Below, piece after piece: positions 35,905 to 61,846 of a DNA stretch of 64,000 nucleotides (position 1 is the stretch's first letter; each line of letters starts with the position of its first letter). This stretch comes from Sphingomonas jejuensis (GTDB taxonomy: Bacteria; Pseudomonadota; Alphaproteobacteria; Sphingomonadales; Sphingomonadaceae): the NCBI RefSeq assembly GCF_011927695.1, contig NZ_JAATJE010000001.1, positions 558,001 through 622,000 of the forward strand, written 5' to 3'. The position numbers were made by a program, and so were the translations under genes. The notes under the pieces were generated by a model. That model saw only the letters and a list, made by a program, of their open reading frames with translations, did no database searches and had not been told where the DNA came from.

Positions 35905-35906
35905 AG

Positions 35907-38887: not shown

Positions 38888-38977
38888 CCGGTTGTCCTTC
38901 TGTCCGTTATTGTCACCGTCTTCTGCCGCATTGCCAAGCCGCTTCATGGCGGCGCCGCGGTCTGCTACATTCCCGCT

Positions 38978-41781: not shown

Positions 41782-41836
41782 GACGGCCTGTGCTGTCGTC
41801 CGGCTGCTTATCGGCCGGACGCGAAGGCCGGATTGG

Positions 41837-45390: not shown

Positions 45391-46109
45391 CTGTCTTCCC
45401 GGGGCCTGCCGCCCGTCACTTCTTCGCCGGCGGGGGCGGAGGAGGTGGTGGTGGCAGCGTCTGAGTCGGGGCGCGCGGTGCCGGCGTGACGCCCCCCTGG
45501 ACGCGCCCGCCCGGGGCGATGTGGCTCGGCGCGCGTGGTGGAGGCGACGTCCCCCGCGTGCCGGTCGACGGACGGGGTGGGCTGGGCGGCGGCGGGGGTG
45601 GGGCAGGCGCACGTGTTGGCGCTCGCGGCGGGGGGTTGACACCCTCGTTGAGGCGCGACGGCCGGGATGGTGGGCTGGGCGGAGGCGGGGGGCTTGGACG
45701 ACGGCTCATCGGCGGACACCACGTTCGCTGTGACGAAGGAGAACAAACATAGAAGACTGACCGGGAAGGACCAGAGGGAAATGGCGTTAAGGATGTCCAG
45801 CACTGGTGATGAGGGAGGGTCGTCGTCGTTGAGGGCGCGCCGACGCGCGTCAATCGCGCGACGGGCGGCCCCGAAGCTGAACGTGAGGGCGAGCAACCCG
45901 AGCACGCTGGCGATCCAGCCGAGGATCAGGGCCGGCCGCCAGACCGCATCCTTGAGCGGAGTGACATCGCCGACGAACGCGACCGAGGACGCGAAGAGGG
46001 CGGTGTGCGCCAGCGCGACGAACGAGTCTCGTCCGGTCTCGTTCTGCGCGTAAGCCGCGTCGAGCGTTCCGCGCTCGTGCGCGAAGTCGTCTGCCGACCT
46101 GCTTGCCAT
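45381..46109 (-). CDS. Small membrane protein in the defence operon, tail frame uncertain
   Basis: A 242-residue protein as the frame stands. Three hydrophobic segments (about residues 30-48, 58-78 and 110-130) are followed by a long low-complexity tail, and the gene overlaps the helicase start by ten bases. A second frame, ending at 45416, gives a cleaner proline-rich tail closing in PPPPPPPPPAKK and would leave a normal gap to the helicase, so a frameshift near 45650 is possible. The start overlaps the methyltransferase stop (TGATG). The resemblance to small multi-helix membrane effectors is structural only. Confidence 0.6.
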   Translation of the reverse strand: MASRSADDFAHERGTLDAAYAQNETGRDSFVALAHTALFASSVAFVGDVTPLKDAVWRPALILGWIASVLGLLALTFSFGAARRAIDARRRALNDDDPPSSPVLDILNAISLWSFPVSLLCLFSFVTANVVSADEPSSKPPASAQPTIPAVAPQRGCQPPAASANTCACPTPAAAQPTPSVDRHAGDVASTTRAEPHRPGRARPGGRHAGTARPDSDAATTTSSAPAGEEVTGGRPREDRCF

Positions 46110-48985
46110 CACGCGGCGTCGAGCTGCTCGTAGAGCGACAGCTGCTTCGGCGCGCCGATTTCCTCGCCGTAGACGATGCGGCGCAGCTTCTCGAGCGCGT
46201 CGAAGTCGTCTGCGGCAGGCTTCACGGCGTCATCGGCGTCGATGCCCGAGAATGTCTTGGACGGCGGCAGCACCTCCAGCATCACCTCCAGCGCAACCTT
46301 AAATTCGTCGTCGTTCAGCAACCCGTTGGCCTCTAGCTGGTCGCGCGCCGCCTCCACGCTCTGCTTGCGCGCGGTGTTGGCGGCATGGTGGAGGGCGTCG
46401 ATCATGCCGCGCGAACCATCCGCCGGTCCGAGCGCGCCCTTGGCGACGCGAGTGGCGCTGTCCCACAGCTTGAGGTCGGATCCCTTCTTCTCGGCCAGGC
46501 GCCCGACCACCTGCGTCATGTCGAGGCCGACGGCACGTGCAAGGCGAAGTCCCTCGTCATAGGCGAACTGCGGCGCACGGAACGCGTCCCAGGCGAGCGC
46601 GACCCACGCGGTGGCTGGATCCATGTCGCGGCTGGCGCGACGATCGGCGAGCTGGGCGAGGCGCCACGCCTTCACTTCCCGGCGCGCGGCGTTGAGCGCG
46701 TCCTCGGGGCGGACGGCATATGGGTCGAACTCCTCCAGCAGGTCGCCCTGCGATCCGCGCTTGGCCGGCGGCTGCGGCGCGGGAGTGCCGCGCGTCAGCG
46801 GCCAATGGCGCGAGAACGCCTCCAGCGCCGGGCCGAAGCTGGCGAGGTACAGGTCGACGCCGGCGATGCCGGACGCTTGGAACTCGTCGATGCGCTCGCG
46901 GACCGCCTTGGCGACGAGCGGCTCGACCTCCTCCCAGTAGCTCGCCTCGCCGCCTTGCTCCAGGCGGGGGCGGCAGACGAGGAAGATAGTGGAGTTGGCG
47001 GCGGCCTTGTCCTTGATGTGGAGTGAGCCGGACGCCTCGGTGTTCACCGGCCAAGACGCGGTGATGACGAAGCCGGCGTCCATCAGCGACATGGCCAGCG
47101 CGTCCCACGCGCCCGTGTCCTTGTGGGTGAACATGACGGTCATGATGCCGTCGTCCTTCAGGACCCGGCGGCACTCGGCGAAGATGCCGGCCATCTTGTC
47201 CTGATAGTCGCGATTGGCCAGCTTGGCCGCGCCCTTCTGGCCCTTGAAGTGCGCCGCATTGGCGACGGCTTCGGCTTCCTTGTCAGCAAGGCGCCGAGTA
47301 AACAGTTCTGGGACGACAAGGCCGGCGGTGCGCTTCAGCCAGACATAGAAGAAGTCGGACAGCTCGGCATACATGACGTTGGCGCCGTAGGGTGGGTCGA
47401 TGATGACGGCGTCCACCGAACCATTTTCGATATGAGGCAGCGACGAGCCGCTCGAATTTGAAATGGCTATCCGCCCTGTCGTATTGTCGGAAAACAGGCT
47501 GACATCCGGACTGATGAGATCGATAATGCTCGACAACGAGTCTTTACTCCCGGCGAGTGCCCATTCAAGGCCACGTCCGACGTGAGAAGCAGCCATTTCG
47601 GCATACGACCACTTAAAGGCGAAGTCATGCCGATCGAAGGTGTTGACGATCACCTCACGCTTGGAGTGCCATCGCGTCATTCTCGAATTGTAGTCTCTGA
47701 ACTTGTCGAGGGAGAACGCGATGTAAACAAATGCAGCCTTGGTAAGATCGTCGAGGGTTCCTGCTCGGTCGTGCTCATCGACCATGGCACGGAACACCTC
47801 GGACGAAGTTCCATGAGCGAACAGTTGACGATTAGAGAATTGATCGCGCCAAAGTGGCATTCCATAGTTTAGAGGTCGGTCATCGTTGCTTATTTCCGGA
47901 TAGGACTCGTTTGGAATAATGTCGAATGCTTCCCATTCTGGGAGCTTGGCGGCGAGTAGGCCATCAACCTCTTGCCGGTTGTCGTCTTTGTCGCGAGCGG
48001 CACGGTAGTTTCGCTCCCAAGCAGATCGGGTCGATCCATTCTTGGTCACTTTATCAACGCGACGTCTGTAAGCGACGGCGACGAGCTGATCACCCATCTT
48101 GCCCGATTTGGCGAGAGTCTTGATTTCCGTCCCCGAGATGGCTCGGCCGCAGTCTTCGAAGACGCATACGCCGTCGCCACCGGCGACAGTCGGCTCAGTG
48201 GCGGACGATGCGGCCACAAGATCATAGGTGCAGACCCGACCCGGTGTGTTGGGTCCCGCGCCTAGGTGCGGTCCAACCTTGATGCCGCGGCCGGGGGCGA
48301 TCACCCAAGTCGGGGAAAGCGGGGTCTCGCCTCCGCAATACGGGCATTCGGTGGTTCGGGTCCAAATATACCCGTCGACTCGGCAGCCCTCGTCTTCTTC
48401 CGGATAGAGATACTGAAGAGCCGCCTCAACCCGCCCGCTAAATTCCCCAGCCAACTGCTTGTATCGCTCTAGGAGCGGCTTGCCAAAGCGATACGGATAC
48501 TCGGTGGTGGCCTTCAGGATAATGGCGGCGACAGGGTTAAGATCGTTCGCGAGCGATGTGGTCCCCAGACGAAGAGCTTCAAACGGTATGGAACCACCAC
48601 CCGCGGTTGCGTCTAAAACGACTTTCTCGGCGATGTCAGGGACGATCTTGGCTGCGTCGCGAGCGGGATCATACTTGAACGCGCGCGGGTAACCGTATGG
48701 GTCACTCCCAAGATCCCGACCCGTTCGCTTAGCGGCTTCGATGGCAGCTCGCGTCGCGACGGGGTCGCCGGCTATGCCAAGCGCTTTCTGGAATTCGGCG
48801 TGGTCCGTCGTCGCGGGAGCGAGCGACGCGAGAATAGCGGAGCGAGAGGCGACGAGCGGCCGACGCGCCCACCACACGTGCAGGAAGTTGATCGGCGGCA
48901 GCGAGGTCGGGAGCCGACGCTCTCTGGCACCTTCTTCTCCGATGGCGGCAATTGGCAAAAAGCGCTCGATTAGGCGGGTCGTCAT
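46109..48985 (-). CDS. DUF1156-containing DNA methyltransferase
   Basis: A 958-residue adenine- or cytosine-N4-type DNA methyltransferase. The DUF1156 N-terminus is at residues 30-55 (PINFLHVWWARRPLVASR), SAM motif I at 123-140 (VVLDATAGGGSIPFEA) and catalytic motif IV VIIDPPYGANVMY near 529. The C-terminal 350 residues are helical and lack known motifs. It presumably marks host DNA for the restriction machinery encoded in the same operon. The interior coding for about residues 100-525 (roughly 47.4-48.7 kb) is distinctly lower in GC than both ends, suggesting exchange of the target-recognition region. Confidence 0.88.
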   Translation of the reverse strand: MTTRLIERFLPIAAIGEEGARERRLPTSLPPINFLHVWWARRPLVASRSAILASLAPATTDHAEFQKALGIAGDPVATRAAIEAAKRTGRDLGSDPYGYPRAFKYDPARDAAKIVPDIAEKVVLDATAGGGSIPFEALRLGTTSLANDLNPVAAIILKATTEYPYRFGKPLLERYKQLAGEFSGRVEAALQYLYPEEDEGCRVDGYIWTRTTECPYCGGETPLSPTWVIAPGRGIKVGPHLGAGPNTPGRVCTYDLVAASSATEPTVAGGDGVCVFEDCGRAISGTEIKTLAKSGKMGDQLVAVAYRRRVDKVTKNGSTRSAWERNYRAARDKDDNRQEVDGLLAAKLPEWEAFDIIPNESYPEISNDDRPLNYGMPLWRDQFSNRQLFAHGTSSEVFRAMVDEHDRAGTLDDLTKAAFVYIAFSLDKFRDYNSRMTRWHSKREVIVNTFDRHDFAFKWSYAEMAASHVGRGLEWALAGSKDSLSSIIDLISPDVSLFSDNTTGRIAISNSSGSSLPHIENGSVDAVIIDPPYGANVMYAELSDFFYVWLKRTAGLVVPELFTRRLADKEAEAVANAAHFKGQKGAAKLANRDYQDKMAGIFAECRRVLKDDGIMTVMFTHKDTGAWDALAMSLMDAGFVITASWPVNTEASGSLHIKDKAAANSTIFLVCRPRLEQGGEASYWEEVEPLVAKAVRERIDEFQASGIAGVDLYLASFGPALEAFSRHWPLTRGTPAPQPPAKRGSQGDLLEEFDPYAVRPEDALNAARREVKAWRLAQLADRRASRDMDPATAWVALAWDAFRAPQFAYDEGLRLARAVGLDMTQVVGRLAEKKGSDLKLWDSATRVAKGALGPADGSRGMIDALHHAANTARKQSVEAARDQLEANGLLNDDEFKVALEVMLEVLPPSKTFSGIDADDAVKPAADDFDALEKLRRIVYGEEIGAPKQLSLYEQLDAA

Positions 48986-49002
48986 GTTCAGTTCTTCCCC
49001 GA

Positions 49003-49476
49003 TCAGCGCTGGGTGGTGGTGAGCAGCACGCGCAGCGCGGTCAGGACGCGGCGCGGGTTCTTACGATGGACGGCCATGCCGAGCCAGTAGGCGGCTTCTT
49101 CGCGCGCCATGTCCTCGATACCCTCGGCGACCTGCACCATGGCGGCGCGCGAGCGCATGGGAGCCAGCACGCGGAACATCAGCGCGATCCGCAGCGCCGC
49201 CGCCTCATCGATGGGTGCGCGCAAGCCGTCGACCGGCATGACGTCTAGGCGGATGCCGGCGTCGCGCAGTCGCTTGAGGATCCGGATCTGGTTGATCTCC
49301 AGGTTGCGTCCGGCGAGGCCGGCGACCCGCACGGGGACCGTGACGTGGGGGCTCGCCGGCGAGGGCAGCTGCCAGATCTCGACCTGGAGCTCGTTGCCGG
49401 CCCGACGTGCGCGGACCTCGTAGGAGGGCTGGATGGTGGGACGGGCCATGTATTCGGCTTTCCTGCGGGTCTGCAT
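49003..49476 (-). CDS. 157-aa protein between DUF499 and DUF1156 genes
   Basis: A 157-residue basic protein: an N-terminal beta-rich part (PSYEVRARRAGNELQVEIWQLP) and a helical C-terminal part rich in Ala, Arg and Met (EAAYWLGMAVHRKNPRRVLTALRVLL). It may correspond to the small DUF7680-type partner of DUF499/DUF1156 systems, recalled with low confidence. The ATG at 49476 overlaps the DUF499 stop (TGATG) and the stop lies 17 bases before the methyltransferase start, so it belongs to the operon. Confidence 0.7.
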   Translation of the reverse strand: MQTRRKAEYMARPTIQPSYEVRARRAGNELQVEIWQLPSPASPHVTVPVRVAGLAGRNLEINQIRILKRLRDAGIRLDVMPVDGLRAPIDEAAALRIALMFRVLAPMRSRAAMVQVAEGIEDMAREEAAYWLGMAVHRKNPRRVLTALRVLLTTTQR

Positions 49477-52400
49477 CACGAATTCACCTTGGCGGAGGCT
49501 TCGACGAAGGCGGCGGCGGCGCCGAAGCGGGTCAGACGGTCGACAATGCGCTCGGGAGCATCGCCGTCGAGCGCGAGGCCGCTGGCGAAGTCGAGCCGGA
49601 TGACGACCTCGAGCCGCTTCTCGCTCGCGGCCCGGAGCAGGGGCTCGACGAACTCGCGCAGCCCCTTCATCTCCGTCAGCGTGCCCTCGGCCCGGATGCT
49701 GAGCTCGCCGCCGGCCGCGGTGGCGAGGTCGCCCTCCATCTCGACGTGCTTGGTGGCGTCGGGCACGCCCTCGGCCACAGGCAGCAGCTTGAAGGCGTCG
49801 GCGTAGTCGAAGGGCGAGATGGTCACCGACGCAAGACTGACCGCCTTTGCGCTGCGCGCCTTCTGGAAGACGACGTTGAGCGCCTCCTTCAACACGCCCT
49901 CGTGCATGAACACTGTGCCCGGGCTTGCCCCGCCTGCGTCAGCCGCGCCGCGTTGTGTCGTCGCGCCGGGGTCGCCTGTCGCGGGTCCGCCAGCTCCAGT
50001 CTGGTGCGCGCCGGCGGTGGTCTCGCCGCCCTGCGATCCGCCGTCGGCCGAGTTGGTGCCTCCCCCCTCGATGCCGCCAGACCCGACGCCACCGCCGGTG
50101 GTTGGTGCCGGCCGCGGCCAGATGCCGTGCTCCTTGGCGTAGTCGGCGGTGAAGATGACCGAGGACTCATCGATGACGATGCTGGGCATCGGCTCGCCCT
50201 GACCAGCGACGAGGTCCTCGCGCCGGTATACGAACACGCCGTCTTCGATCCCCTTGCGCACGATCTTCTTGAACGGGTCGTCGCCGATCTGGATGGGTAG
50301 GCTCGGGTCGCGCCGGAATTCCTCTCGCAGCGCAGCGGCGGTCATCTGGCGCTTGCTCTTGAGCGGCGTGCGGTCGCGGATGTAGGCGGGCGCGTCGGGT
50401 GCGTCCTCCGGCGACTTGAGCTTGTTGCTCGCCGAAAGCTGCCGGACGACCTGCACCTGTCCGGCGCCGGGCTTCTCCGCGGTCGAGGGGTTGTCTATCG
50501 AGGCGTAGCCGAGGCTGACCGACCCGTCGCCCAGCGCCGCCTTGGATGGGTAGAGCAGGTGGCGGTAGCATCCCTGGATCGCGACGGCGACGGCCTGCTC
50601 CGACCGCTGCTCCTGCCGCAGGATCTCCTGCTGCTGGTGGTCGGCCAGGTCGACCAGGCGCTCGGGGCGTTTGAGCTCGGCGAGGGCAATGCGGCGGCTC
50701 ATTGCCTCGCGCATCTGGGACACCGCGCGCTCGTCGGCGAGCAGGAAGACGAGGTTGTTGCGCAGGAGTCGGATCTTGTCCTCCTCGGCACCCTTACGCG
50801 TGTACATGCGGGCGATGAACTCGGGCACTGCGTCGAGTTGCGACGAGACCTCAAGCGTCTCGTGCTTGACCACGACCAGGCGCGGCTTGCCGTCGCCGAC
50901 GTCGTCCGGCACATCGAACGCGCCGGCCGGGAACAGGATCGGGTCGAAGGTCGGCCGGTCGCCGGAGAAGATGTCCTTGATCCGGCTGTCGAGTTCGAGC
51001 CGGATGCGCTCCGCGTCGATGCCCTTCTCCTCGCGCGCGATGATCTGCGTGAGGTTGGCCTCTGCGTTGAAGCGAAGTGGAGCGCCGGGGCGATCGTCGA
51101 GATACGCGCTATCGGTCTGGAAGCGCACCAGGCTGGCGTCGAGCAGGTCGAGGTCGGAGGCCGGCGAAGCGATCGAGTAGCGCAGCTGTGCAGGCGTGAT
51201 GCCGCGAAGCTCGTTGTTGAACGCGAGCGTGTGCACGAAGATCGTCCGGGCGGCGTAGGAGGCATACGGAAGCAGCCCGGCGTTCATGTCCGCGTCGACT
51301 GCCTGGGCGAGCGCGGGCTTGCCGGCCGGACCGGCGACGTCGTTGTTGATGGCGGGAACGAACGCAGACTGGCCGAGACGCGTCGTGAACTCTCGCTGCA
51401 CGTCCTCCTGGCCGAGGTCGATGTGGTGCGTGTGGATGGCGAACGCGTCCGGAGCGCGCCGGGCCCAGAGGCCGGCCACCGTCTTGGCGAGGATGCGCAG
51501 CATGCCGCGCACGCGCTGGAAGTCGGCCAGCGTCGCCGTCTTGTCGGTCAGCGTGTCGATGAGGTCGGGGTGGAACGGGTAGGTGTCGGCCAACCGGGAT
51601 CCTCGCACCCCCTCGCGGCTCTCGACCCGCTTGTCCGCCTGCACCGTTGCGTAGGCGGCGGCGACCTCGTCGGCGGCACCGGGCCGGATCGTCTCGAACA
51701 GGCGGCGGCGCAGCACGGCCACCGTCTCGTCGTCACCGGTCGGGTTGAGGATGGTGGCCTTGCGGCCGGACACGCTCTCGGCCTCGGCGATCAGCTTCGC
51801 GACGGCCTCGTTCTCGGCGGCGAAGGCGTCGGTCGCCTTGCCGTCGGCGCGCACCGCGAGCGTGAACACCACGGCGGCGCGCGGCGAGGACTCGACGGCC
51901 GAGAACAGCGCCTTGATGAAGGCGGCGAGCTGGTCGCGGCCGCCGGCGCCTGGGCTCTTGCGCAGATACTCGCCGATCTCGTCCAGCACGATCAGCGCCG
52001 GCTCGTCGCCCAGCAGCTCGGACAGCGTCTCGGAGCCGGGTGCCTTCCGCTCCACGTCGGACGCGCGGACGCGCTCGTAGCCGTCGCGGCCGCGCAGCTG
52101 GTAGGCCAGCTCGCCCCAGGGCGTGTAGGCGAGCACGCCGTCGCCCATGGCGCGCCCGTTGGTCGGATCGGACGCCTCGCCGTCGAAGGCGGCGACGCGC
52201 GCAGTCCCCGGCATCGTCACCGACGTGAACTCGGCCAGGTTGGGGATCGACGCTGCGCTGCGTGCCGCGTGGATTAGCGCGATGAGCCCGTGCGTCTTGC
52301 CGCCGCCGAAGCTGGTGTCGAGGCGGAACACCGAGGAGACCGCACCGGGCGTGCCGGACAGGCGGCGCAGCACCTGGTCGAGCAGCTCCTTGAGGCCGGC

Positions 52401-52565
52401 CGTCGGATAGGTGTTGGTGAAGAAGCGGATCGGGTCGACGTAGTCGGGATGGCCGGTGCGGTTGACCACCGGCCCGAGGCGCGCCGCGAAGTCGCCCTCC
52501 GACATCGCGCCCGACAGCACGTCGGGGCGCGGGGCGCAGAGGTCGTAGATGGTCGGTGCGCTCAT
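49476..52565 (-). CDS. DUF499 AAA-type ATPase
   Basis: A 1029-residue ATPase of the DUF499 family, which accompanies DUF1156 methylases and helicases in restriction-like loci. The Walker A is at residues 83-92 (DTSFGGGKTHG) and a Walker B-like ALIVLDEIGEYLRK lies near 190. A Gly/Thr/Ser-rich flexible linker (about residues 815-880) separates a C-terminal beta domain with FDYADAFKLLP. It probably powers assembly or DNA loading of the complex, possibly like BREX PglY/BrxC-type ATPases. The ATG overlaps the HTH gene stop by four bases. Confidence 0.86.
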   Translation of the reverse strand: MSAPTIYDLCAPRPDVLSGAMSEGDFAARLGPVVNRTGHPDYVDPIRFFTNTYPTAGLKELLDQVLRRLSGTPGAVSSVFRLDTSFGGGKTHGLIALIHAARSAASIPNLAEFTSVTMPGTARVAAFDGEASDPTNGRAMGDGVLAYTPWGELAYQLRGRDGYERVRASDVERKAPGSETLSELLGDEPALIVLDEIGEYLRKSPGAGGRDQLAAFIKALFSAVESSPRAAVVFTLAVRADGKATDAFAAENEAVAKLIAEAESVSGRKATILNPTGDDETVAVLRRRLFETIRPGAADEVAAAYATVQADKRVESREGVRGSRLADTYPFHPDLIDTLTDKTATLADFQRVRGMLRILAKTVAGLWARRAPDAFAIHTHHIDLGQEDVQREFTTRLGQSAFVPAINNDVAGPAGKPALAQAVDADMNAGLLPYASYAARTIFVHTLAFNNELRGITPAQLRYSIASPASDLDLLDASLVRFQTDSAYLDDRPGAPLRFNAEANLTQIIAREEKGIDAERIRLELDSRIKDIFSGDRPTFDPILFPAGAFDVPDDVGDGKPRLVVVKHETLEVSSQLDAVPEFIARMYTRKGAEEDKIRLLRNNLVFLLADERAVSQMREAMSRRIALAELKRPERLVDLADHQQQEILRQEQRSEQAVAVAIQGCYRHLLYPSKAALGDGSVSLGYASIDNPSTAEKPGAGQVQVVRQLSASNKLKSPEDAPDAPAYIRDRTPLKSKRQMTAAALREEFRRDPSLPIQIGDDPFKKIVRKGIEDGVFVYRREDLVAGQGEPMPSIVIDESSVIFTADYAKEHGIWPRPAPTTGGGVGSGGIEGGGTNSADGGSQGGETTAGAHQTGAGGPATGDPGATTQRGAADAGGASPGTVFMHEGVLKEALNVVFQKARSAKAVSLASVTISPFDYADAFKLLPVAEGVPDATKHVEMEGDLATAAGGELSIRAEGTLTEMKGLREFVEPLLRAASEKRLEVVIRLDFASGLALDGDAPERIVDRLTRFGAAAAFVEASAKVNS

Positions 52566-52840
52566 TGTCCCTCTCTCGCCTTTTCCTCTTGCGCCGTCGG
52601 GCGGCCGCCCTCCGCGCGCACGTGTTCCTCTATCCTCGCGGCCAGCCGCGCCATGCTGTCGCCCCGCTGCCGCAGGATCGTCAGCAGCTTGTCCGGCACG
52701 TCGCCGGGCACCTCGTGGCGACCCGCCGCCCAGTTCCGCATGGTGCGGTCGGTCACGCCCAGGTCGCGGGACAGCGGCGTCTGCCAGCGCTCCCCGTAGA
52801 GCGCCTCACCCGCCTGCCTGAGAATGTCCGACCCCTTCAT
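52562..52840 (-). CDS. Small helix-turn-helix regulator of the defence operon
   Basis: A 92-residue protein with an XRE-like helix-turn-helix at about residues 20-55 (WQTPLSRDLGVTDRTMRNWAAGRHEVPGD, DNA-recognition helix around VTDRTMRNWA) and a C-terminal helix. It is first in the seven-gene operon, overlaps the DUF499 start by four bases, and is well placed to autoregulate the promoter in the 207-base divergent region shared with umuD. Confidence 0.85.
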   Translation of the reverse strand: MKGSDILRQAGEALYGERWQTPLSRDLGVTDRTMRNWAAGRHEVPGDVPDKLLTILRQRGDSMARLAARIEEHVRAEGGRPTAQEEKAREGQ

Positions 52841-52974
52841 CGTTTCCGCATTATAGGAAGAAGCGGCTGGTGGACCAAGCGCTTTCGTCCGCGCGAGCTT
52901 TTTTCTCGACAGGCGCGGTGCGCGCCGCCGGTGTCGTGGTCCATCCTGGCCGCGTTCCCGTCCGCGGGGTCCGA

Positions 52975-52989
52975 GTTCCCGCTTTGTTC
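52975..52989 (+). promoter_or_regulatory. SOS (LexA) box upstream of umuDC
   Basis: GTTCCCGCTTTGTTC is an exact match to the alphaproteobacterial LexA operator GTTC-N7-GTTC. It ends 58 bases before the umuD ATG and lies in the intergenic region shared with the divergent defence operon, so DNA damage should derepress umuDC and may also influence the other promoter. Confidence 0.78.
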
Positions 52990-53047
52990 GTTCCGGGGCT
53001 CCAGCCTATAACCGCTGCATGACGACCGGGAGGACACAGGGACGGCC

Positions 53048-53476
53048 ATGAACGCGATCCGGCTCATCGAGGTGCCGTTCCAGCTGGTGCCCGCCGAGGC
53101 GAGGCTGCTGCTGTGCACGACGCCGGCGGGGTTCCCGTCGCCCGCGCAGGACGACATGGAGGAGCCGATCGACCTGGCGGCATGGCTGATCGACCATCCG
53201 GCGGCGAGCTACGTCATGCGGGTGGCGGGGCACTCGATGGTGGACGCGGGCGTGAACGACGGCGACCTCGTCGTCGTCAGCCGCGCGGTGCAGGCACGAC
53301 CCGGCGACATCGTCGTGGCGCTGGTCCATGGCGACAGGACCATGAAGCGGCTGCGCCGCCGCGGGGACCGCCTGTGGCTGGTGCCCGAGGCGGAGGGTTA
53401 CGACGCGATCCGCGTCGACGAGCACGTCGAGATCTGGGGCGTGGTCGTGGCGCTGGCACGACGCTACCGCGCGTGA
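53048..53476 (+). CDS. umuD: UmuD-like S24 peptidase (translesion polymerase subunit)
   Basis: A 142-residue protein aligning with E. coli UmuD throughout: the self-cleavage junction at [10 protein letters not shown] (Ala-Gly in place of Cys-Gly), the catalytic serine in [14 protein letters not shown] and the lysine in DRTMKRL. RecA-stimulated self-cleavage yields the active form that joins UmuC in DNA polymerase V. The ATG follows GGGACGGCC. Its stop overlaps the umuC GTG start. A perfect SOS box is upstream. Confidence 0.92.
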
Positions 53477-54741
53477 CCGCCATCGGCCTGATCGACTGCA
53501 ACAACTTCTACGTCAGCTGCGAGCGGGCGTTCGACCCCAAGCTCGTCGGCGTGCCGGTCGTGGTGGCCAGCAACAACGACGGCTGCGCGATCGCCAGGTC
53601 GAACGAGGCGAAGGCGCTTGGTGTGAGGATGGGCGATCCCATCCATCTCATCCGCGACCGTCTGGACAAGCATGGCGTCGTCGTGCGCTCGTCCAACTAC
53701 ACCCTCTACGGCGACATGCAGCGCCGCGTCGTCGCGGCGGTCGAGGAGTTCGCCAGCGAGGTTGAGATCTACTCGATCGACGAGAGCTTCCTCGATCTGG
53801 CGCCCTTCGCCGACCGCGACCTGACCGTCCACGCGAACGGGATGCGCGACCAGGTGCGGCGATGGACGACGATCCCCACCTGCGTCGGGATAGGTCCCAC
53901 CAAGACGCTGGCCAAGGTCGCCAACGCGGCCGCGAAGAAGAACCCGCTGTTCGACGGCGTGGCCGACCTGCGCGATCCCGCGATCCGCGCGTTCGTGCTC
54001 GACCGCTTTCCCGTCGCCGACGTGTGGGGCGTCGGCCGCGCCACGGCGGCCAAGCTGGCGACGCTTGGCGTCACGACCGCCGGTCAGCTCCGCGACATGC
54101 AGCTGAAGCAGGCGCGCGGGCTCGGGACGGTGGTGCTCGAGCGGCTGGTGGCCGAGCTGCAGGGCGTGGCCGCCAGCGTCGTCGAGGTGGTCGAGCCGCG
54201 GCGCAAGGGCATGGCGGTGACCCGCTCGTTCGGCGCGCCGGTTTCCGACCTGGAGACGCTGATGGGCGCCGTGGCCCAATATGCGATGCGGGCGGGCGAG
54301 AAGCTGCGATCGCACGGGCTGGTGGCCGGACAGCTCACCGTCTTCTTCCACACCAATCCCCATCGCCGGGATCTTCCGCAGCATCACGGCAGCCGCCGCA
54401 TTGCGCTGCATCCGATGACGGCCGACTCGCTCGAGTTGCTCGCCGCCGCGCGGCGCGGGGTGGAGGCGGCGTGGCGGGACGGGCCGGCATACACCAAGGC
54501 GGGCATCATGCTCGACGACCTGGTCGCAGAGGAGCAGCGGCCGCGCACGCTGTTCGAGGGGGACGTGGACCGCCGGGCGAGGTTGATGACCGCGCTCGAC
54601 GAGGTGAACGGCAGGTTCGGACGGTTCACCGCGGTGCCTGCGGCACAGGGCTTCGCCCGCGAGTGGCGGATGCGGGCGGAGGCCAAGTCGCCGGCGTGGA
54701 CGACCCGCATCGCCGAGGTTCCGGTCGTGTCGGCCCGCTGA
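53473..54741 (+). CDS. umuC: UmuC, Y-family DNA polymerase V catalytic subunit
   Basis: A 422-residue error-prone translesion polymerase. Catalytic carboxylates are in [17 protein letters not shown] and [30 protein letters not shown] and the helix-hairpin-helix [13 protein letters not shown] follow, and the C-terminal little-finger domain is complete. Start GTG at 53473 overlaps umuD (GTGA). Carried on the transposon, the pair would increase SOS mutagenesis or help survive damage. Near the end, [11 protein letters not shown] is at the position of the usual beta-clamp motif but is degenerate. Confidence 0.94.
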
Positions 54742-54759
54742 TCCCGACGCTGGTACACG

Positions 54760-56517
54760 ATGGTCAGCGTCGTCGCGTGGCCTCGAACGACTCGCGTTGC
54801 GACTTCGCCCGCTCTACCTTCCGGCGTGCCGAATCGACCCGTCCTCATCGACAGCTTCGTCTCTCTGCCGGGAACCACCGAGATCGTGGGCCTGGGCGGC
54901 GTGCGCCAGCCGCGCGGCGAGGCGCAGGAGGTGGAGGTCGAGGTGGTCGTCGCGTCGGACATGGACGCGCCCGGCTTCGATCCGGTCCATGACGTGTCGT
55001 CGCACTGGCTCGGCTGCGGCCAGCTGGACCTGCTGGCGCCGGGGTCGTGCTGGGTGGGAGGCCAGTGGAAGCGGTGGGCGCCGGGGCTTGCCATCGAGGA
55101 CAGCTTCGAGTGCAATGGCTGGAGGGAGGAGATCGGGGTGGGGCTCCACCCGCAGCCGCGGGGTCGACCGTTCCCGTCGCGGCGCTTCGCGTCGGTTCCG
55201 GGCTTCCTGTTACGTCGGCTGGCCGTGGAGGGGAATGCGCCGCGCGAGCGGAGGTGGAATGACCCCGACTGGGTCCTGCTGCCGCCCATGGCGCTGCTTC
55301 GCGCGCTGTTCGGCGTGAGCAGCGGGTTCCTGCTGGAGCTCTTCGACGGCATACGCGACCCCGCCGTGTCGGGCGAACGCGGCCTGGTCAGCCGCCAGCT
55401 CTCGCGGGTGCGCGATGACGGCACGGTCGTGCTGGAGGCTGGGCGCGACCTGTCGCGCGACGAGGCCGTCGCCGCCGCCGCGGTGATAGCGGACAAGGCG
55501 ATCCGCTCGCTGCACGATGCGGCGTTCCAGCAGCTGAGCGTGGACCACGAGGCGCGTGACGGTCGCGCCGTCAACCTTGATCTGGTGTGGCCGTGGCGAG
55601 TGCCTGTTCGGATGCGATTGGTCGGACGATGGGTAACGAGGGTCGACGCCCAGCCGAGGTTCGTCGCGTTGCGCATCGAGGCGATCGCTCCGCCACTGCC
55701 ATTCAAGCGCGTCGAGGTGCGTCACCCCGGTTCCGAGCGAGGCGCCGGACGGGACCTTCCGCCGCCTGACGGCAGGACAAGGCCCGCCAACGCCCGTCTG
55801 GTCGTCCTGACCACCGGCCGCGCCGGCTCGACCGGCCGTCGGTCGGTGGAGGTGCCGACCGGATCGGTCGATCTCGTCAGCGCGAGGGATGTCGAGGTGG
55901 TCTCCGTCGCCTGCGGCGCAGGCGTTCGGCGCGACCGGGCTTTGATCGGAGAGGATCCCCGGGACGCCGCGCCATTCGGCACCGGCGGGCGCCAGCCTGG
56001 AGCCGACCCGGAGGTCGGCGCGGCGGTCCTGAGGCGCAGGGCGAGAGCGGGCGAAGTGGCGGCCCGTCTACCATTCAAGGCGCTGGCTGACACCTGGATC
56101 GCTCTTGAGACGGCATGCCGATCACGGGGCTGGCGGCTGGACGCGCAGCCAACCACGTCGGGCCGTAGGTCGCCGCACGGGGGCCTCGATCTCACGCGCG
56201 AGCCGCTGGTTGCCATCGTGCGAGTGGGGGGACGACGGCTCGTCGTCGTGGATCGAGGCTCGCCACTAGGCGACGAGCGCAGCCTGGGACTGCTGTTGCC
56301 GAAGAGAGGGGGCATGAGCGACCGCGACCTTGCCAATGCGGCCCGAAGGGCTTGCGTCTCGGTCGACGGGAGCTGGCGCTCGCCGAAGGTCGCCCAGCCC
56401 GGCTTCGCGCCGGAGTTCGTGGTTAGGGGCGTCGCGCGCCCCTTCGGCCTGTGGGACGACCGCGCGGCCTATGCCGACTTCATGCGTCGGCGTATCGCGT
56501 CAGCCCTGGCTCTCTAG
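54760..56517 (+). CDS. Possible TnsE-like transposition protein
   Basis: A 585-residue protein (563 if it begins at GTG 54826; no clear ribosome site at either). Size and layout echo TnsE: an N-terminal half with PPMALLRALFGVSSGFLLELFDG, a middle region with NLDLVWPWRVPVRMRLVGRW, a low-complexity linker, and a C-terminal domain beginning LADTWIALETACRSRGW. TnsE sends Tn7 to replicating plasmids by binding lagging-strand DNA and the sliding clamp. This reading is based on remembered architecture and on the location beside tnsD, with which it converges and overlaps by 18 bases, so it is only a hypothesis. It follows umuC by 18 bases. Confidence 0.45.
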   Translation: MVSVVAWPRTTRVATSPALPSGVPNRPVLIDSFVSLPGTTEIVGLGGVRQPRGEAQEVEVEVVVASDMDAPGFDPVHDVSSHWLGCGQLDLLAPGSCWVGGQWKRWAPGLAIEDSFECNGWREEIGVGLHPQPRGRPFPSRRFASVPGFLLRRLAVEGNAPRERRWNDPDWVLLPPMALLRALFGVSSGFLLELFDGIRDPAVSGERGLVSRQLSRVRDDGTVVLEAGRDLSRDEAVAAAAVIADKAIRSLHDAAFQQLSVDHEARDGRAVNLDLVWPWRVPVRMRLVGRWVTRVDAQPRFVALRIEAIAPPLPFKRVEVRHPGSERGAGRDLPPPDGRTRPANARLVVLTTGRAGSTGRRSVEVPTGSVDLVSARDVEVVSVACGAGVRRDRALIGEDPRDAAPFGTGGRQPGADPEVGAAVLRRRARAGEVAARLPFKALADTWIALETACRSRGWRLDAQPTTSGRRSPHGGLDLTREPLVAIVRVGGRRLVVVDRGSPLGDERSLGLLLPKRGGMSDRDLANAARRACVSVDGSWRSPKVAQPGFAPEFVVRGVARPFGLWDDRAAYADFMRRRIASALAL

Positions 56518-57714
56518 GGCCGCCATGGCCTCGGTGCGCCAGCGCGAGGGAACCGCCTGCCGCCGTTCGTAGTCCATGTGCCGGTATATGGCGGCGCGGC
56601 TCTCGCCGCAGATCGCGCGCAGGTCGCGGTATGTCGCCTTGCCCCTGGTCCGGCGGAGCCAAGCCGCGGCGGCGGCGACCTCGGGCTCCGTGGCTTGGTA
56701 TGGTGTGGCGTCCATGTAGGCGCGCATGACCCGCTCGTAGGCGAACGGTGGGTTCGGCATGTCCTTGATGGCATGGGAGCGGTGCATGCCCGCCTCCAGG
56801 CATGAGTGGACGAACCGGTGCGGCCAGCCCCTCATCAGCCGTTCGACCATGTCGAACAGGCGGTGCCGGTCGGCGACGTCGAGATACTCGAACGGCTGGC
56901 GCGCCGTCGGCTTCTCGTAGGGCGCGGGATCCCCGCCCCAGTCCCTCGCAACCACTTGGCGAAGGGCTTGCGCGTGGCGGCCGTTGACGAGCAGGGCAGC
57001 GACCTGCCGCACGATGGCGAACGCGACGTGGGCGCGGAGATGCTCGTCGCCGAGCGGCCCCCAGCCACGCTCCAGCGCCGCCTCAAGCATGCTCTGCCAG
57101 GCGATGTGGTCGTGCCGCGCGACCGCCGCAGCCTGCTCGCACAGCTCGCCGCCGCACTTGAAGCAGTGCATCGCAGATGCGGCGGCGTGCTGATGGACGG
57201 GCGCGTCGCATTGCGGGCATCGGTCGCGCAGCAGCTGGCCGTGGGTCGTGCAGGACGTGACGAATGCCAGTCGCCATCGCCGTCTGAAGTAGGGCTTCGC
57301 GTCGGTGGCGAGGCACGCGGGGCAGTATTGCAGCCCGGTCCTCAGGCGCACGTTGTTGTCGATCGTCGTCGGCAGCAGCCAGGGGTTACGGCCCTTCGGG
57401 TTGTGCGCGGTGATCAGCGTTCCGGCGTAGGCCCGCAGCGTGCAGGCGTGGATCTCCTCGGCGGGCCGCAGCGTGCCGAGTGCGATCCGCTCGACGATCC
57501 GGGGTGGCGCGAAGTTGTCGAGGTCCTGCGCCAGCAGGTTCTTCGCCGAGCCGAACACCGTGTTGAGGAAGGTGATGGGCTTCAGGTCCATGCCGACGGC
57601 GAGGCGGCACAGGTAGGACGATAGCAGTTCGTCCGGCAGCGGCTGCGGCCGGAACGGCCACGGCTGTATTGCAGGCTTCGGCCGCGGACGCGGCAGGAGC
57701 GTCTCGACCGGCAT
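56500..57714 (-). CDS. tniQ: TnsD/TniQ-family target-selection protein
   Basis: A 404-residue TniQ-type protein, shorter than Tn7 TnsD. The N-terminus ELLSSYLCRLAVGMDLKPITFLNTVFG is typical, followed by a zinc region with YCPACLATD, RCPQCDAPVH and CFKCGGELC, and a C-terminal HTH-like part (KATYRDLRAICGESRAAIYRHM). It should recognise the comM target and recruit TnsC. The ATG at 57714 overlaps the tnsC stop (ATGA). It is the last gene of the transposition operon. Confidence 0.9.
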   Translation of the reverse strand: MPVETLLPRPRPKPAIQPWPFRPQPLPDELLSSYLCRLAVGMDLKPITFLNTVFGSAKNLLAQDLDNFAPPRIVERIALGTLRPAEEIHACTLRAYAGTLITAHNPKGRNPWLLPTTIDNNVRLRTGLQYCPACLATDAKPYFRRRWRLAFVTSCTTHGQLLRDRCPQCDAPVHQHAAASAMHCFKCGGELCEQAAAVARHDHIAWQSMLEAALERGWGPLGDEHLRAHVAFAIVRQVAALLVNGRHAQALRQVVARDWGGDPAPYEKPTARQPFEYLDVADRHRLFDMVERLMRGWPHRFVHSCLEAGMHRSHAIKDMPNPPFAYERVMRAYMDATPYQATEPEVAAAAAWLRRTRGKATYRDLRAICGESRAAIYRHMDYERRQAVPSRWRTEAMAALESQG

Positions 57715-58619
57715 CAGGCCACCCGGCGACCGACCGACACGATGCTGCGGTCTCTGACGCGGTCGATGGTGGACAACGTGATCCGCTCCTCGCCGCTGTC
57801 GATGGCGACCTTGCAGGCGTCCTCCAGCAGGTAGTTGAGGCGGCCGATGTAGCCCTGCGTCAGCGTGTACGCGAGCTGGACCAGCCCCTCGTTCTCGCGG
57901 AACCGCGACTGCCGGCGCAGCGGGAGCATGCGCTCGAAGGCCAGCAGGATCATCGCGAACTCGGACAGCGTGAACGGCTTCAGCTTGATCACCGTGTTGA
58001 GCCTGCCGGCGATCTGGTCCTCGCTCGCGATCATGTCGAGGACGACCTGCGTGCCGCCGACGACGAACGGCCGCCCCGTGTCGTTGATGAGGCTCTTCAT
58101 GAACACGAGGAAGCTGACGATCTTCGAGTTCATGCGGCTGTCGCGCGAGATGTCGTGGATCTCGTCGATCATGACGGTTCCGACGCGGCAGGCCTTGAGC
58201 ATGGTGACGGCGTGGCTGCGCAGGTCGGCGGGCGAGGGGTTGTAGCGCAGCGGATGTCCGAGCTCGGCGAGGATCTTCTTGAGCACGACGACCGGATCGG
58301 GGTTGTCCGGCGCGGTCAGGTAGATGACGCGGTGCTCGGCGTATTCGCTTTCCGGGTCCATGCGCGGCTGGTGGAGGTCGCGGAACGCCTGCATCGTGCG
58401 GCTCTTGCCCGTGTCGGCCTCGCCCGTGATGATGAGGCCTCGCGGCTTCGTGGACTGCGCGGCGTTCATGCAGTCCTGCAGCTCGATGAACGCCTCCTTG
58501 GTCGAGGGCGTCGGCACCCAGACACGGTTCCAGCACTCGCCGAGACGCCCGCGGCCCTCGATGTCGAGGAACTCCTGCATTTCCGGCCGGAGCGTCGGGT
58601 TGTCGTAGGTGTCGCTCAT
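57714..58619 (-). CDS. tnsC: TnsC/TniB AAA+ transposition regulator
   Basis: A 301-residue AAA+ ATPase that bridges the target complex and the transposase. Walker A is IITGEADTGKSRTMQ near residues 64-78, Walker B TVMIDEIHDISRDSR near 145, and the sensor-like VVGGTQVV and the GYIGRLNYLLEDA region follow, as in TniB/TnsC. The ATG overlaps the tnsB stop by four bases, and its own stop overlaps tniQ, so tnsB-C-D are one coupled unit. Confidence 0.92.
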   Translation of the reverse strand: MSDTYDNPTLRPEMQEFLDIEGRGRLGECWNRVWVPTPSTKEAFIELQDCMNAAQSTKPRGLIITGEADTGKSRTMQAFRDLHQPRMDPESEYAEHRVIYLTAPDNPDPVVVLKKILAELGHPLRYNPSPADLRSHAVTMLKACRVGTVMIDEIHDISRDSRMNSKIVSFLVFMKSLINDTGRPFVVGGTQVVLDMIASEDQIAGRLNTVIKLKPFTLSEFAMILLAFERMLPLRRQSRFRENEGLVQLAYTLTQGYIGRLNYLLEDACKVAIDSGEERITLSTIDRVRDRSIVSVGRRVA

Positions 58620-60559
58620 TCGAACATCGCCTCCACGTCGTCGTCGCTGATGCCCGCGAGGATGGCGGCGATGCTGCCCTCGGCGGGTGCCTGTTGTGTC
58701 TTCCCGTTCCGCACGGGCTGCTCGTCGGATTGCGTCGATGCTGGCGTCGAGGTCGGCTGCACGAACCTCGGCACGGCTCCGCTCCGGGCGGCGGGCACCG
58801 GCGCCTCCTTTCTGATCCTGCTGTGGTGCTGCTGCCGTGCGGCCTCGCGCTGGGCACTCTTGGTCTTCTTGACCGCCTCTTCGATGTGGCGGTGCTGCTC
58901 GTCTATGATCTTGCTGAGCAGTTCGGGCGTGGGCTCGCGCTTGCGCCGCAGCGCCTCGCGCCGTGCCGCCTGCAGTTCGTGGATGCTGGCTTCGGGGAAG
59001 TTGAGCTGGCGGACGTGGACCGGGATCCACTCGTCCCCGTCCGTCGCGTCAGGGTCCTCGGCCTTCCTGTCCGGATGCTTGACGTAGATGACGCGCACGT
59101 CGAACGGGTGGCGGCGGATCTCGAGCTGGCCGTAGCTCTTGCGGTTCCTGACCAGCCACTCCAGCGACTCGCTGTAGTAGTCGAGGTGGTCGATCCTGAT
59201 GCCGTAGCGCTGGATGCTGCGCTTCACGAGCGGGAACCAGTGGATGCGGAACTGGAGGTTGTCGACGAACACGTCCGGCAGTCGGTGCTTCTGCCCGTTC
59301 GGGCCGAAGTAGTAGCCCCTGAACTTCTCCAGCGGCGGCATGCCGATCCCAGTGTGGACGTCGTTGTGGTATTCGTCGACGATCATCCATGCGTGCTTGG
59401 TGACGTCCTCCAGAGTGAACGCCGCCGTCATCTCGGGGCGGAGCTCCCCTCGCTCGGTCGATGTAGCGCCTGTGGCACCCGGCAGGTCCTTGAAGCGGTC
59501 GGCCAGATTGCCGTTGAGCCTCTCGATGTGTGCGCCGTATTGGGGTTGGCCCAGGGGCCGCCACTTCAATCGAATGTTGAAGTGCGCCGCCGATGCGTTC
59601 GCCGACTCGCCGGTGAACTCGCGCGCGTTGTCGGCCTCGAGCCGCTCGGGCTTGCCGCACATCGGGTTGTCCCACTCGAGCCCGTATCGCTCGGCGATCG
59701 CGTCCTTGCGCGTCATGCCGTTGATCATGGCCATGGCGAACGTGGTCGTGCTTGGCGCGTCGATGCCGACGTGCATGCCGAACACCATGCGCGAGTAGAC
59801 GTCGATGGCGAGCGTGATCCAGACGCGGCCGATGACCTGCAGGCGGTCGTCGGACAGGATCTCGATGTCCGCCTTCCAGTGGTCGATCTGCACGACCTCC
59901 AACGGGCGATGCACCTCGGGATAGTGATCCCTGATCGGGTCGTGCGTCTTGCGGGTCTCGTTGTAGCCCTTGCGCGTCTTGGTCCAGCGGTGCTCCGGGA
60001 TCTTCGTCAGGCGGTCGGCGAGGGTCGCGTGCGCGACCTGCAGCCCTGCCTTCTCCAGCCGGCGCTTGACCTCGCGGAAGAACTTGCGGGGTTTGGCCCC
60101 GCCGCGCTTCAGCACGGTCGCCTCCAGCACCTCCTCGATGATCTTTTGCGCCTTGGGGTTGATGCGCGACTTGCCCCGTCCGCCCGGCCGTGTCGGCGGC
60201 GGCAGCTGGTCCGTCGTGCCCGTCTCCCTGAACCGCCTGATCGCGTCGTATGCGGCGGAGGTGGAGATGCCGAGCTTCTTCGCGGCTTCGGTCACCGCGG
60301 CCTTGGTGTTGCGGTCGTTGCCGAGCAGCGGTCCGAGCGCCTCGACATAGGCTGGCACCTTCGCGGCGCGCTTGGGGTCGACGGAGGTGCCGGAACGCAC
60401 CTGTCCCACCGCCTCCGCCTCGAGATCCTTGATCGACGCGTCGAAGTACTCGCCCTCGGCGCTTACCACGACGAGCGTGTCGAGGTCACGCGCGCCGATG
60501 ACGCGCATCTGCGCGCCCCCGTATCGGACCTTGTCACCCTTCTTCGTGCCGATCTTCAT
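58616..60559 (-). CDS. tnsB: TnsB/TniA DDE transposase
   Basis: A 647-residue Mu/Tn7-type transposase that cuts and joins the 3' ends. Two N-terminal HTH regions (about residues 70-160, with KLGISTSAAYDAIRRFRETG) precede the DDE core: first Asp in VQIDHWKADIE, second in RLEADNAREFTG and Glu in YGAHIERLNGNLADRF. The C-terminal beta-barrel and Lys/Arg-rich tail interact with TnsC. A copy of the end repeat lies 14 bases upstream of its ATG, compatible with autoregulation. Confidence 0.95.
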   Translation of the reverse strand: MKIGTKKGDKVRYGGAQMRVIGARDLDTLVVVSAEGEYFDASIKDLEAEAVGQVRSGTSVDPKRAAKVPAYVEALGPLLGNDRNTKAAVTEAAKKLGISTSAAYDAIRRFRETGTTDQLPPPTRPGGRGKSRINPKAQKIIEEVLEATVLKRGGAKPRKFFREVKRRLEKAGLQVAHATLADRLTKIPEHRWTKTRKGYNETRKTHDPIRDHYPEVHRPLEVVQIDHWKADIEILSDDRLQVIGRVWITLAIDVYSRMVFGMHVGIDAPSTTTFAMAMINGMTRKDAIAERYGLEWDNPMCGKPERLEADNAREFTGESANASAAHFNIRLKWRPLGQPQYGAHIERLNGNLADRFKDLPGATGATSTERGELRPEMTAAFTLEDVTKHAWMIVDEYHNDVHTGIGMPPLEKFRGYYFGPNGQKHRLPDVFVDNLQFRIHWFPLVKRSIQRYGIRIDHLDYYSESLEWLVRNRKSYGQLEIRRHPFDVRVIYVKHPDRKAEDPDATDGDEWIPVHVRQLNFPEASIHELQAARREALRRKREPTPELLSKIIDEQHRHIEEAVKKTKSAQREAARQQHHSRIRKEAPVPAARSGAVPRFVQPTSTPASTQSDEQPVRNGKTQQAPAEGSIAAILAGISDDDVEAMFE

Positions 60560-60572
60560 CTTGGCCTCGGCG

Positions 60573-60586
60573 GCTAACTGGTCCGC
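60573..60586 (+). repeat. Internal copy of the TnsB-binding-type repeat upstream of tnsB
   Basis: GCTAACTGGTCCGC in the 54-base gap between tnsA and tnsB matches the right-end repeats at 61384-61454 (GCTAACTGGTCGC) with one extra C. Its place directly before the tnsB start suggests transposase autoregulation or an old end remnant. Confidence 0.6.
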
Positions 60587-60613
60587 CTAGCTTACATTAT
60601 GTTCCCTGAATGT

Positions 60614-61396
60614 TCACTCGGAATCTGCGTCCCACAATGACATCATGATCGGATCGTCGTCGGGCCTGGGAAGGTCGCCGGGCGCGCGGGCGCAGACCAC
60701 GGTCGCGTCGTCGAACGGACGGGAGAGGTCGCACAGCAGCATGCGCCAGGCCACGGCCTGCTCGATGCCTGCGCGGATGTCGGGCTCGTCCATGCCCAGG
60801 CTGCGCAGCAGCGCGATCGCCTCCGCCACGGTGACGCCATGCGCGCCAAGCTCCCGGCGAATGTGGTCGAACGCCGCGAGCTCCGGGTCGGCGTCGAGGT
60901 GGCGTCGGAGCAGGCGCGCGTTGGCGAGGTAGGGCGTGCGGATGCGATCCTCGCTCATGATGCGGAAGGCGGCCCCCACGTTCTCGGCGGCGACGCGCCC
61001 GGCCTCGAACTTGGGCGCGTATTGCGCCGCGTTGGCGATAAGGTCGGCCTGGCGCTTCACCTCAATGACATAGCGGCTTGGTGCGTCGTCCCCTGACGCG
61101 TGCAGCTGCACGATGATGTCGGGGGTGTATCGCCGCGCCCTGCCGTTCGTCGCGTATTCGATGATCGGCTGCGTGAGCAGGTCGTAGGTGCCGGGCGCGA
61201 AGGCCAGCTGCTCCAGCAGTTCGGCCTCCAGCTCCGATTCGACCTGCTGCGGTCCCGAAGGCGTGCGCAGCGGGACCATGCTTCGGAACGAACTGAACGT
61301 CGCCTCGATGGGGCGCTGCTGGAAGTGCTCTTTAAGGACCATAAGACCGACTTTAGAATAGGTTACGGCTCTCCCGCCACGCGAAACTGGTCGCAT
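60614..61396 (-). CDS. tnsA: TnsA endonuclease
   Basis: A 260-residue TnsA, the restriction-like nuclease that cuts the 5' strands so that the element moves by cut-and-paste. The catalytic core is Glu in SELEAELLEQ, Asp in RRYTPDIIVQL and Glu-x-Lys in YVIEVKRQADL. A C-terminal helical part follows. The ATG at 61396 is preceded by GGAAAAG, but the first codons coincide with an end repeat, so a start at the ATG at 61342 cannot be excluded. Having tnsA means simple insertion, in line with the clean ends. Confidence 0.9.
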   Translation of the reverse strand: MRPVSRGGRAVTYSKVGLMVLKEHFQQRPIEATFSSFRSMVPLRTPSGPQQVESELEAELLEQLAFAPGTYDLLTQPIIEYATNGRARRYTPDIIVQLHASGDDAPSRYVIEVKRQADLIANAAQYAPKFEAGRVAAENVGAAFRIMSEDRIRTPYLANARLLRRHLDADPELAAFDHIRRELGAHGVTVAEAIALLRSLGMDEPDIRAGIEQAVAWRMLLCDLSRPFDDATVVCARAPGDLPRPDDDPIMMSLWDADSE

Positions 61397-61454
61397 GTGC
61401 TTTTCCTCTCTTGCTAACTGGTCGCGCTGACTTGTCAGCTATTCCGACTGGCTT
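61384..61454 (+). repeat. Right-end array of three putative TnsB-binding repeats
   Basis: Three direct copies of an ACTGG-centred repeat lie at 61384-61394 (AAACTGGTCGC), 61413-61425 (GCTAACTGGTCGC) and 61442-61454 (TTCCGACTGGCTT). The ACTGG cores are spaced 31 and 30 bases apart, close to three helical turns, as in Tn7-type ends. The outermost copy is 56 bases from the terminal ACA. Confidence 0.7.
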
Positions 61455-61510
61455 GTGCGATGTTCGGGGCTCGGGGAATGATCCGGTCCGACATGGTTTT
61501 CGGATTCACA

Positions 61511-61515
61511 GCCGA
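61511..61515. repeat. Right target-site duplication (GCCGA)
   Basis: Second copy of the 5-bp duplication, immediately after the terminal ACA of the transposon; matches 33899-33903. Confidence 0.92.
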
Positions 61516-61846
61516 CCTCGTGCTGCCGCCGCCGACCGAAGGATCGGCGGAGGTCGGCGCGCGCGTCGCCGAAGCGCGGGACCGTCAACGCATGCGCTAT
61601 GCCGAGGCGGGCGCCCGCACCAACGCCGATGCGCCGGGAGCGGTGGCGGAGGCGGCGGCCGCGCCGGACGAGCCCGGCACCCGCCTGCTCGCCCAGGCGG
61701 CGGAGGCGACGCGCATGTCGGCGCGCGGCTATGCCCGCACGCTGCGCGTCGCGCGCACGATCGCCGATCTCGCAGGCGCGGACCGGGTCGGCCGCATCCA
61801 TGTCGCCGAAGCACTCAGCTATCGCAGGCGTGCGCCGGTCAGCTAG
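61516..61846 (+). pseudogene. comM: comM 3' fragment
   Basis: The remaining 110 codons of ComM, read LVLPPPTEGSAEVGARVAEA to a TAG at 61844-61846, containing the C-terminal helical region SARGYARTLRVARTIADLAG. The frame is open upstream to an ATG at 61460 inside the transposon end, but this would give only a 128-residue fragment without the ATPase. Joined to 32726-33903 it gives 1509 bases (502 residues plus stop), the normal ComM length. Confidence 0.94.

Follow-up and report, generated by a model that had tools for sequence, protein, structure and literature searches.

The window analysed here, a stretch of 64,000 nucleotides from Sphingomonas jejuensis, contains a Tn7-like transposon inserted in comM, and the large gene that converges on its tniQ is very probably a divergent tnsE, an alternative target selector of this element. 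That reading, raised in a preliminary description of the sequence, draws on profile comparison via intermediates, with shuffle and reversal controls, and on a structural match of the C-terminal domain, both of which bear it out.

An intact Tn7-like element at a fixed position in comM

The element is 27,607 bp long and interrupts comM, a gene of the YifB family, after about 393 codons (Table 1). Its termini begin TGTCAAAC and TGTGAATC, GCCGA flanks it on both sides, and it is intact, bounded by 5-bp duplications, and occupies a constant site in comM: three relatives (L001, G163 and G159) are found at the identical position with GCCGA, at both ends for G163 and G159 (where the left copies were read off the sequence directly) and at the right end for L001. 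In the eight other relatives with intact comM (11 minus G004, G007 and G400, where the gene is in pieces) the empty site is uninterrupted, with the exact GCCGA in 2 of 8. A tRNA-Leu (61891) lies outside the element.

The cargo includes an Hma-like defence operon and a DUF4365/APAZ-type protein. Downstream of the DUF4365 gene, the ORF at 40509-41984 has no PADLOC match and the frame at 40327-41778 no Pfam match. DUF499/DUF1156 genes are also present in related elements, close ones in L001 and more distant ones in G163. The umuDC pair next to the putative tnsE had been taken as a hint of the role of that gene, a hint that carries no weight: umuDC is cargo, and tblastn found neither umuC nor umuD in the three other sphingomonad elements (L001 being covered to 10 kb left of tnsE). 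A umuC of 38% identity also occurs inside the element of G1334.

Table 1. Features of the element and its insertion site (positions in the window)
Feature	Position	Strand	Remarks
comM 5' part, about 393 codons	32726..33903	+	YifB family, TIGR00368 to model position 396 of 499
Target-site duplication GCCGA, left copy	33899..33903	.	
Tn7-like element, 27,607 bp	33904..61510	.	ends TGTCAAACATGG (left) and TGTGAATCCGAA (right, read inwards)
DUF4365/APAZ-type protein, 726 aa	38147-40327	+	PADLOC: Argonaute-associated REase, 3.9e-136
Hma-like defence cargo operon	42250..52565	-	helicase, DUF1156 methylase, DUF7680, DUF499 ATPase
Helicase	42250-45642	-	HmaA among many helicase matches
DUF1156 methylase, HmaB-like	46109-48985	-	
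DUF7680	49003-49479	-	
DUF499 ATPase, HmaC-like	49476-52565	-	
umuD and umuC, cargo of this copy	53048..54741	+	
tnsE homologue (probable)	54826..56517	+	563 aa from GTG 54826; ORF open from 54760
QLDLL, residues 66-70, putative	55021..55035	+	resembles beta-clamp motif QL(S/D)LF
C-terminal domain, residues 410-563	56053..56514	+	model matches TnsE C-terminal structures 9d5l, 5d17, 5d16
tniQ, 404 aa	56500..57714	-	Pfam TniQ 1.8e-29; 3' end overlaps tnsE 3' end (56500-56517)
tnsC (TniB/AAA), 301 aa	57714..58619	-	Pfam
tnsB transposase, 647 aa	58616..60559	-	Pfam Mu-transpos_C and rve
tnsA, 260 aa	60614..61396	-	Pfam Tn7_TnsA-like_N
Target-site duplication GCCGA, right copy	61511..61515	.	
comM 3' part	61511..61846	+	

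A coding frame convergent with tniQ

The 585-codon ORF at 54760-56517 (+), downstream of umuDC and convergent with tniQ, is present as it had been described, open throughout, real and coding. Third codon positions are GC-rich along its whole length, and three orthologues align with it from end to end (94, 46 and 46% identity), the closest coming from Sphingomonas corticis (L001). The ratio dN/dS is 0.029/0.106 = 0.28 between the window gene and this 94% copy, and 0.025/0.102 = 0.24 for the orthologue pair L003-L004. The GTG at 54826 is probably the start, giving 563 aa, since it aligns with the ATG of the orthologues at 46% identity.

Compared with L001, tnsE has diverged further (94% aa identity, dS 0.106) than tniQ, tnsC and tnsB (at least 99% aa, dS 0.009-0.027), as might be expected if TnsE had lost its function and were decaying. 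We regard this as very improbable, however: the four orthologues are without internal stop or frameshift (the one TGA of G159 lies upstream of the ATG used), and both dN/dS ratios speak against decay. Moreover, identity to L001 is about 98-100% over the core but 85-97% across the 5' two thirds of tnsE (54826-56026), so that the drop begins inside the gene, upstream of about 56026; the pattern suggests recombination or an N-terminal part that changes faster.

Profile comparisons point to TnsE

Standard searches do not label the protein a TnsE: Pfam and NCBIfam (E <= 1) and a PDB sequence search gave no TnsE match. Pfam TnsE_C (PF18623), which detects two Tn7-type TnsEs at 6.7e-54 and 1.2e-42, has no match to the window protein at E <= 1, and three orthologues and one intermediate match 0 Pfam families at E <= 10, TnsE_C included; the model serves to detect the family rather than to define it. 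A scan with PF18623 hit 0 of 59 family genomes and no control genome either, making that search uninformative.

The connection to Tn7 runs through more distant relatives. A profile of the four orthologues recovered one relative besides its own genome in a class sample of 385 genomes, an alphaproteobacterial protein of 596 aa that abuts a broken comM (G882, E 1.9e-7); in an order sample of 396 genomes it found only its own genome, G159 and three matches judged to be chance. With the G882 protein added, the profile yielded four more relatives (G1192, G1334, G1336 and G1302) in a phylum sample of 398 genomes, with E values of 4.1e-18, 1.4e-13, 8.7e-12 and 8.1e-4. A further relative of 613 aa comes from G400, of the same order, at a profile E of 2.8e-7 in a search limited to a small set of ORFs.

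These proteins were compared with 11 Tn7-type TnsEs, gathered by homology to annotated Tn7 TnsE from Tn7-type elements; the truncated TnsE-like fragments in L041 and L042 were excluded from all alignments. With hhalign, the four orthologues match five intermediates at a probability of 98.2, and the five intermediates match Tn7-type TnsE at 87.7 over 457 columns. As members are added to the window profile, its probability against Tn7-type TnsE climbs from 5 (four members) and 28 (five) to 93.5 over 465 columns (nine) and 95.4 (ten), the last over 240 columns that are N-terminal only; such an HMM-HMM comparison was what the preliminary description had proposed. In 40 column shuffles the score never exceeded 18.7, and reversing the alignment gave 19.5, against 74.8 for the true ten-member profile. 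Taken alone, the N-terminal part scores 40.1 (control at most 17.1) and the C-terminal part 34.7 (control at most 13.5), and the parts do not match crosswise (N- versus C-terminal score 14.4). Judged by these alignments, the window protein is homologous to Tn7 TnsE in both its N- and C-terminal parts, via the intermediates.

Could the gene nevertheless be cargo unrelated to TnsE, its similarity having arisen by chance? The failure of Pfam, NCBIfam and PDB sequence searches to name TnsE would fit this, as would the weakness of the direct comparison between the four orthologues and Tn7-type TnsE without intermediates (probability 5, P 0.0072) and the result that the nine-member profile finds nothing among PDB sequences at E <= 10, whereas the Tn7-type profile recovers 5d17, 5d16 and 9d5l. 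On its own, the C-terminal part of the four orthologues also shows no match to the corresponding part of the five intermediates (probability 0.3). Yet the shuffle and reversal controls, the separate matches of both parts, the structural match described below and the constant location next to tniQ in four elements that differ in part of their remaining cargo make coincidence barely credible. In a tree of 22 TnsEs, the 11 of the window branch split from the 11 Tn7-type proteins with 100/100 support (midpoint root, long branches flagged). On this evidence from sequence, the window protein is best described as a TnsE homologue of a branch other than that caught by Pfam TnsE_C.

The modelled C-terminal domain resembles that of TnsE

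A full-length AlphaFold model (two sequences) reached a pLDDT of 28 and was kept out of structure searches; the C-terminal domain modelled alone reached pLDDT 60.8 and pTM 0.62. When the latter model was compared with 509 chains by VIA-align, the three solved TnsE C-terminal domains took ranks 1-3, with Z of 8.4 for 9d5l (138 aligned, rmsd 3.7), 8.3 for 5d17 and 8.1 for 5d16, bearing in mind that a Z near 8 can reflect a common arrangement in unrelated folds. The alignments to TnsE chains cover 136-138 of the 154 model residues, and the next rank went to a type III secretion chaperone (Z 6.9). Foldseek returned nothing at E <= 0.001 for the C-terminal model, and TnsE was absent among the best 50 rows. 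The model is middling and the same family is named by sequence; together they suggest that the C-terminal domain has the fold of the TnsE DNA-binding domain. Structural similarity to TnsE, whose absence would have counted against the original proposal, was thus found. As for the domain outline proposed at the same time, the compact C-terminal domain and a poorly conserved middle stretch were recovered, whereas the N-terminal helical part was not confirmed by the full-length model. For TnsE, two N-terminal domains resembling SSB have been described (PMC10293859).

Relatives are linked to a Tn7-like core

Searching 397 family genomes for tnsE gave nine with matches. Three are the own genome, G159 and G163 (the last two at 45-46%); the matches in the other six are weak and were all rejected as chance. 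Those in G292, G121 and G075 fall in PhaC-like polymerases (L005 identified, the other two by likeness), that in G364 is truncated where the contig ends, next to the aminotransferase gene that also neighbours the G075 match, and those in G139 and G363 are located within other genes or on the strand opposite to them (gene names assigned by inspection). Order-sample matches in G292 (same place), G554 and a second place in the own genome (G000) were also dismissed (L027 and L029 inspected), and the order-sample match in G519 involves the same residues as the PhaC matches. Viral contig scans with the window protein, A3 and A5 gave no confirmed relative.

A TnsB query matches 18 of 337 family genomes at E <= 1e-20, only three of them above 34% identity (100, 73 and 73%). 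The three genomes with this tnsB clade (at least 73%, of 337) are the same as those with this tnsE (of 397), which ties tnsE to this transposase clade. In G160, tnsABC-tniQ comes without a tnsE match in the 60 kb read, and as the contig ends about 1.7 kb past tniQ this provides no test.

Both genes could be placed in 11 elements (the window, L001, G159, G163, G400, G882, G1192, G1302, G1336, G1334 and Deinococcus gobiensis), and tnsE and tniQ are on opposite strands in all of them. The orientation, which had been put forward as an oddity of the window gene, is therefore nothing unusual, and is also known from Tn6022 (PMC10293859). Tail-to-tail arrangement with overlapping 3' ends holds in 5 of 11, namely the four sphingomonad elements and G400, where the overlap is 8 bp and comM is broken at about codon 286; in G882, tnsE lies about 68 kb from tniQ. 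Homologues unlinked to Tn7-like genes had been named as evidence against the TnsE reading, and every full-length homologue (11/11) has a Tn7-like core in the same contig or record, adjacent or 4 to 68 kb away.

The G1192 and G1334 relatives stand beside broken comM; in G1192, G882 and G400 the comM piece reaches as far as about position 284 of the model. In G1334 (L081, L058, L066) the break in comM falls at about codon 76; tnsE occupies one end of the element and the core lies about 44 kb off. In G1336 and G1302 (L056, L057), the Tn7-like elements that carry a tnsE of this branch immediately follow lipA (lipoyl synthase), which may serve them as an attachment site in place of comM. The S. jejuensis genome itself encodes, on an 84-kb contig (G000:C3:34985-35413; L053, L065), another TniQ, accompanied by tnsC- and tnsB-like genes, 25-36% like those of the window; no TnsA match was seen in the 19 kb read around it.

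Plasmid-borne relatives and a possible role of TnsE

In 72,556 plasmid records, neither the window tnsE protein nor L030 as query found a match, and the window TnsC matched 1,569 records at E <= 1e-10, all of them below 60% identity (27-31% for the 25 listed). The G1192 protein (L055) matched four plasmid records in part. One of these, plasmid P3 of D. gobiensis (NC_017771), has a 547-codon open frame opposite tnsABC-tniQ that is a full-length TnsE relative; its start is unsettled because the first four possible starts listed are all CTG. The P3 element has one candidate duplication, CTTCT on both sides, with ends beginning TGT, and sits between annotated MmeI and methyltransferase pieces in the same orientation, which, from their order and annotation, may be halves of one gene. 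The other three records are enterobacterial, with partial matches to truncated copies; in the two that were opened, no annotated Tn7-like core lies within 20 kb of the truncated copy. On the Enterobacter and Pantoea plasmids (L086, L088), the TnsE-like ORF is accompanied by an IS21, a recombinase-family gene and a DNA methylase.

What might such a protein do? Tn7 TnsE directs transposition into conjugating DNA, sensing features of lagging-strand replication and contacting the beta clamp, as described in PMC11406308, PMC5371812 and PMC9690074. By homology, the TniQ route would take the window element into comM, its chromosomal home, whereas TnsE with TnsABC would recognise replicating DNA (lagging-strand or conjugal), perhaps via the beta clamp, and send the element to plasmids; we infer such a plasmid-directed route from the likeness to Tn7.

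A different role is conceivable, in which the TnsE homologue has been repurposed as a partner of TniQ that reads the comM site. In the four sphingomonad elements and in G400, tniQ and tnsE are neighbours whose 3' ends overlap, which leaves no same-strand gene after tniQ. This would agree with such a role, as would the dependence of Tn6022 on TnsF to find comM (PMC10293859) and the lack of a match to the window tnsE in the 72,556 plasmid records. Against it, G400 shares the tail-to-tail layout yet uses a different comM site, and related proteins occur in elements after lipA and on a plasmid outside comM, so the TnsE family does not track comM. On balance we find a comM-reading partner unlikely and prefer a TnsE that would act on plasmids.

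QLDLL is a candidate motif for contact with the clamp. It is invariant in 4 of 4 orthologues and departs from the clamp consensus only at the last residue; 0.2% of 5,000 shuffles match the clamp pattern used, which permitted L at that place. QLPLL occurs in one of the five intermediates, and in the other four it is mainly the hydrophobic portion that is retained, so that QLDLL may instead be structural. It also lies elsewhere than PQLELA, which we take to be the clamp motif of Tn7 TnsE and at whose place the aligned residues are PPMALL or PKMELI. One might go further and imagine that the tniQ/tnsE 3' overlap produces mutual antisense RNA acting as a switch between homing and plasmid transfer, with QLDLL as this TnsE's own clamp contact at a new place, but we hold this combination to be doubtful.

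Relation to known elements

TnsE in comM elements is already known (PMC11406308, PMC10293859), so the nearest comparison is with Tn6022/AbaR-type elements, the Acinetobacter Tn6022 TnsE being likened by its published description only. As those papers describe it, Tn6022 shares with the window element a tnsABC-tniQ core, insertion in comM, and a tnsE that is opposite the core and divergent from that of Tn7. The two differ in that the window element inserts at about comM codon 393 whereas the Tn6022 site overlaps the Walker B motif (PMC10293859), and in that the window tnsE is next to tniQ, tail-to-tail, whereas that of Tn6022 is far off at the left end (same source). Furthermore, Tn6022 has tnsF (orf3) in an operon with tniQ, while the window element has no tnsF beside tniQ; as tniQ overlaps the convergent tnsE, no gene follows it on its strand. 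Without tnsF there, we treat the window element as a relative of Tn6022 and do not file it as a member.

Tn7 TnsE itself (E. coli NZ_CP033762, P0001; PF18623; 5d16, 5d17, 9d5l) resembles the window protein in length, order of matched regions and modelled C-terminal fold, but its gene lies behind tnsD on the same strand, whereas the window tnsE is opposite the core and missed by Pfam. The D. gobiensis P3 element is like that of the window in having a full-length TnsE of the branch opposite tnsABC-tniQ and a 5-bp duplication (CTTCT), and unlike it in being on a plasmid, not between comM pieces, and in measuring about 15.5 kb from tnsE to tniQ. Our literature searches, mostly by title, did not meet a sphingomonad element, a comM site near codon 393 or a tnsE tail-to-tail with tniQ. 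What we describe is a divergent TnsE variant that differs from the known ones in gene layout and comM site and has no tnsF next to tniQ.

A review (PMC11406308) presents TnsE as the only known target-selecting family other than TniQ, with information on mechanism from Tn7 alone; TnsF has been described as a further target selector besides TnsE (PMC10293859). A distant TnsE in an element with defined ends, a fixed comM site and no tnsF next to tniQ, and with a plasmid-borne relative, offers a starting point for asking which TnsE regions replication-directed transposition requires. This branch escapes the Pfam TnsE model, so counts of plasmid-directed routes may be too low.
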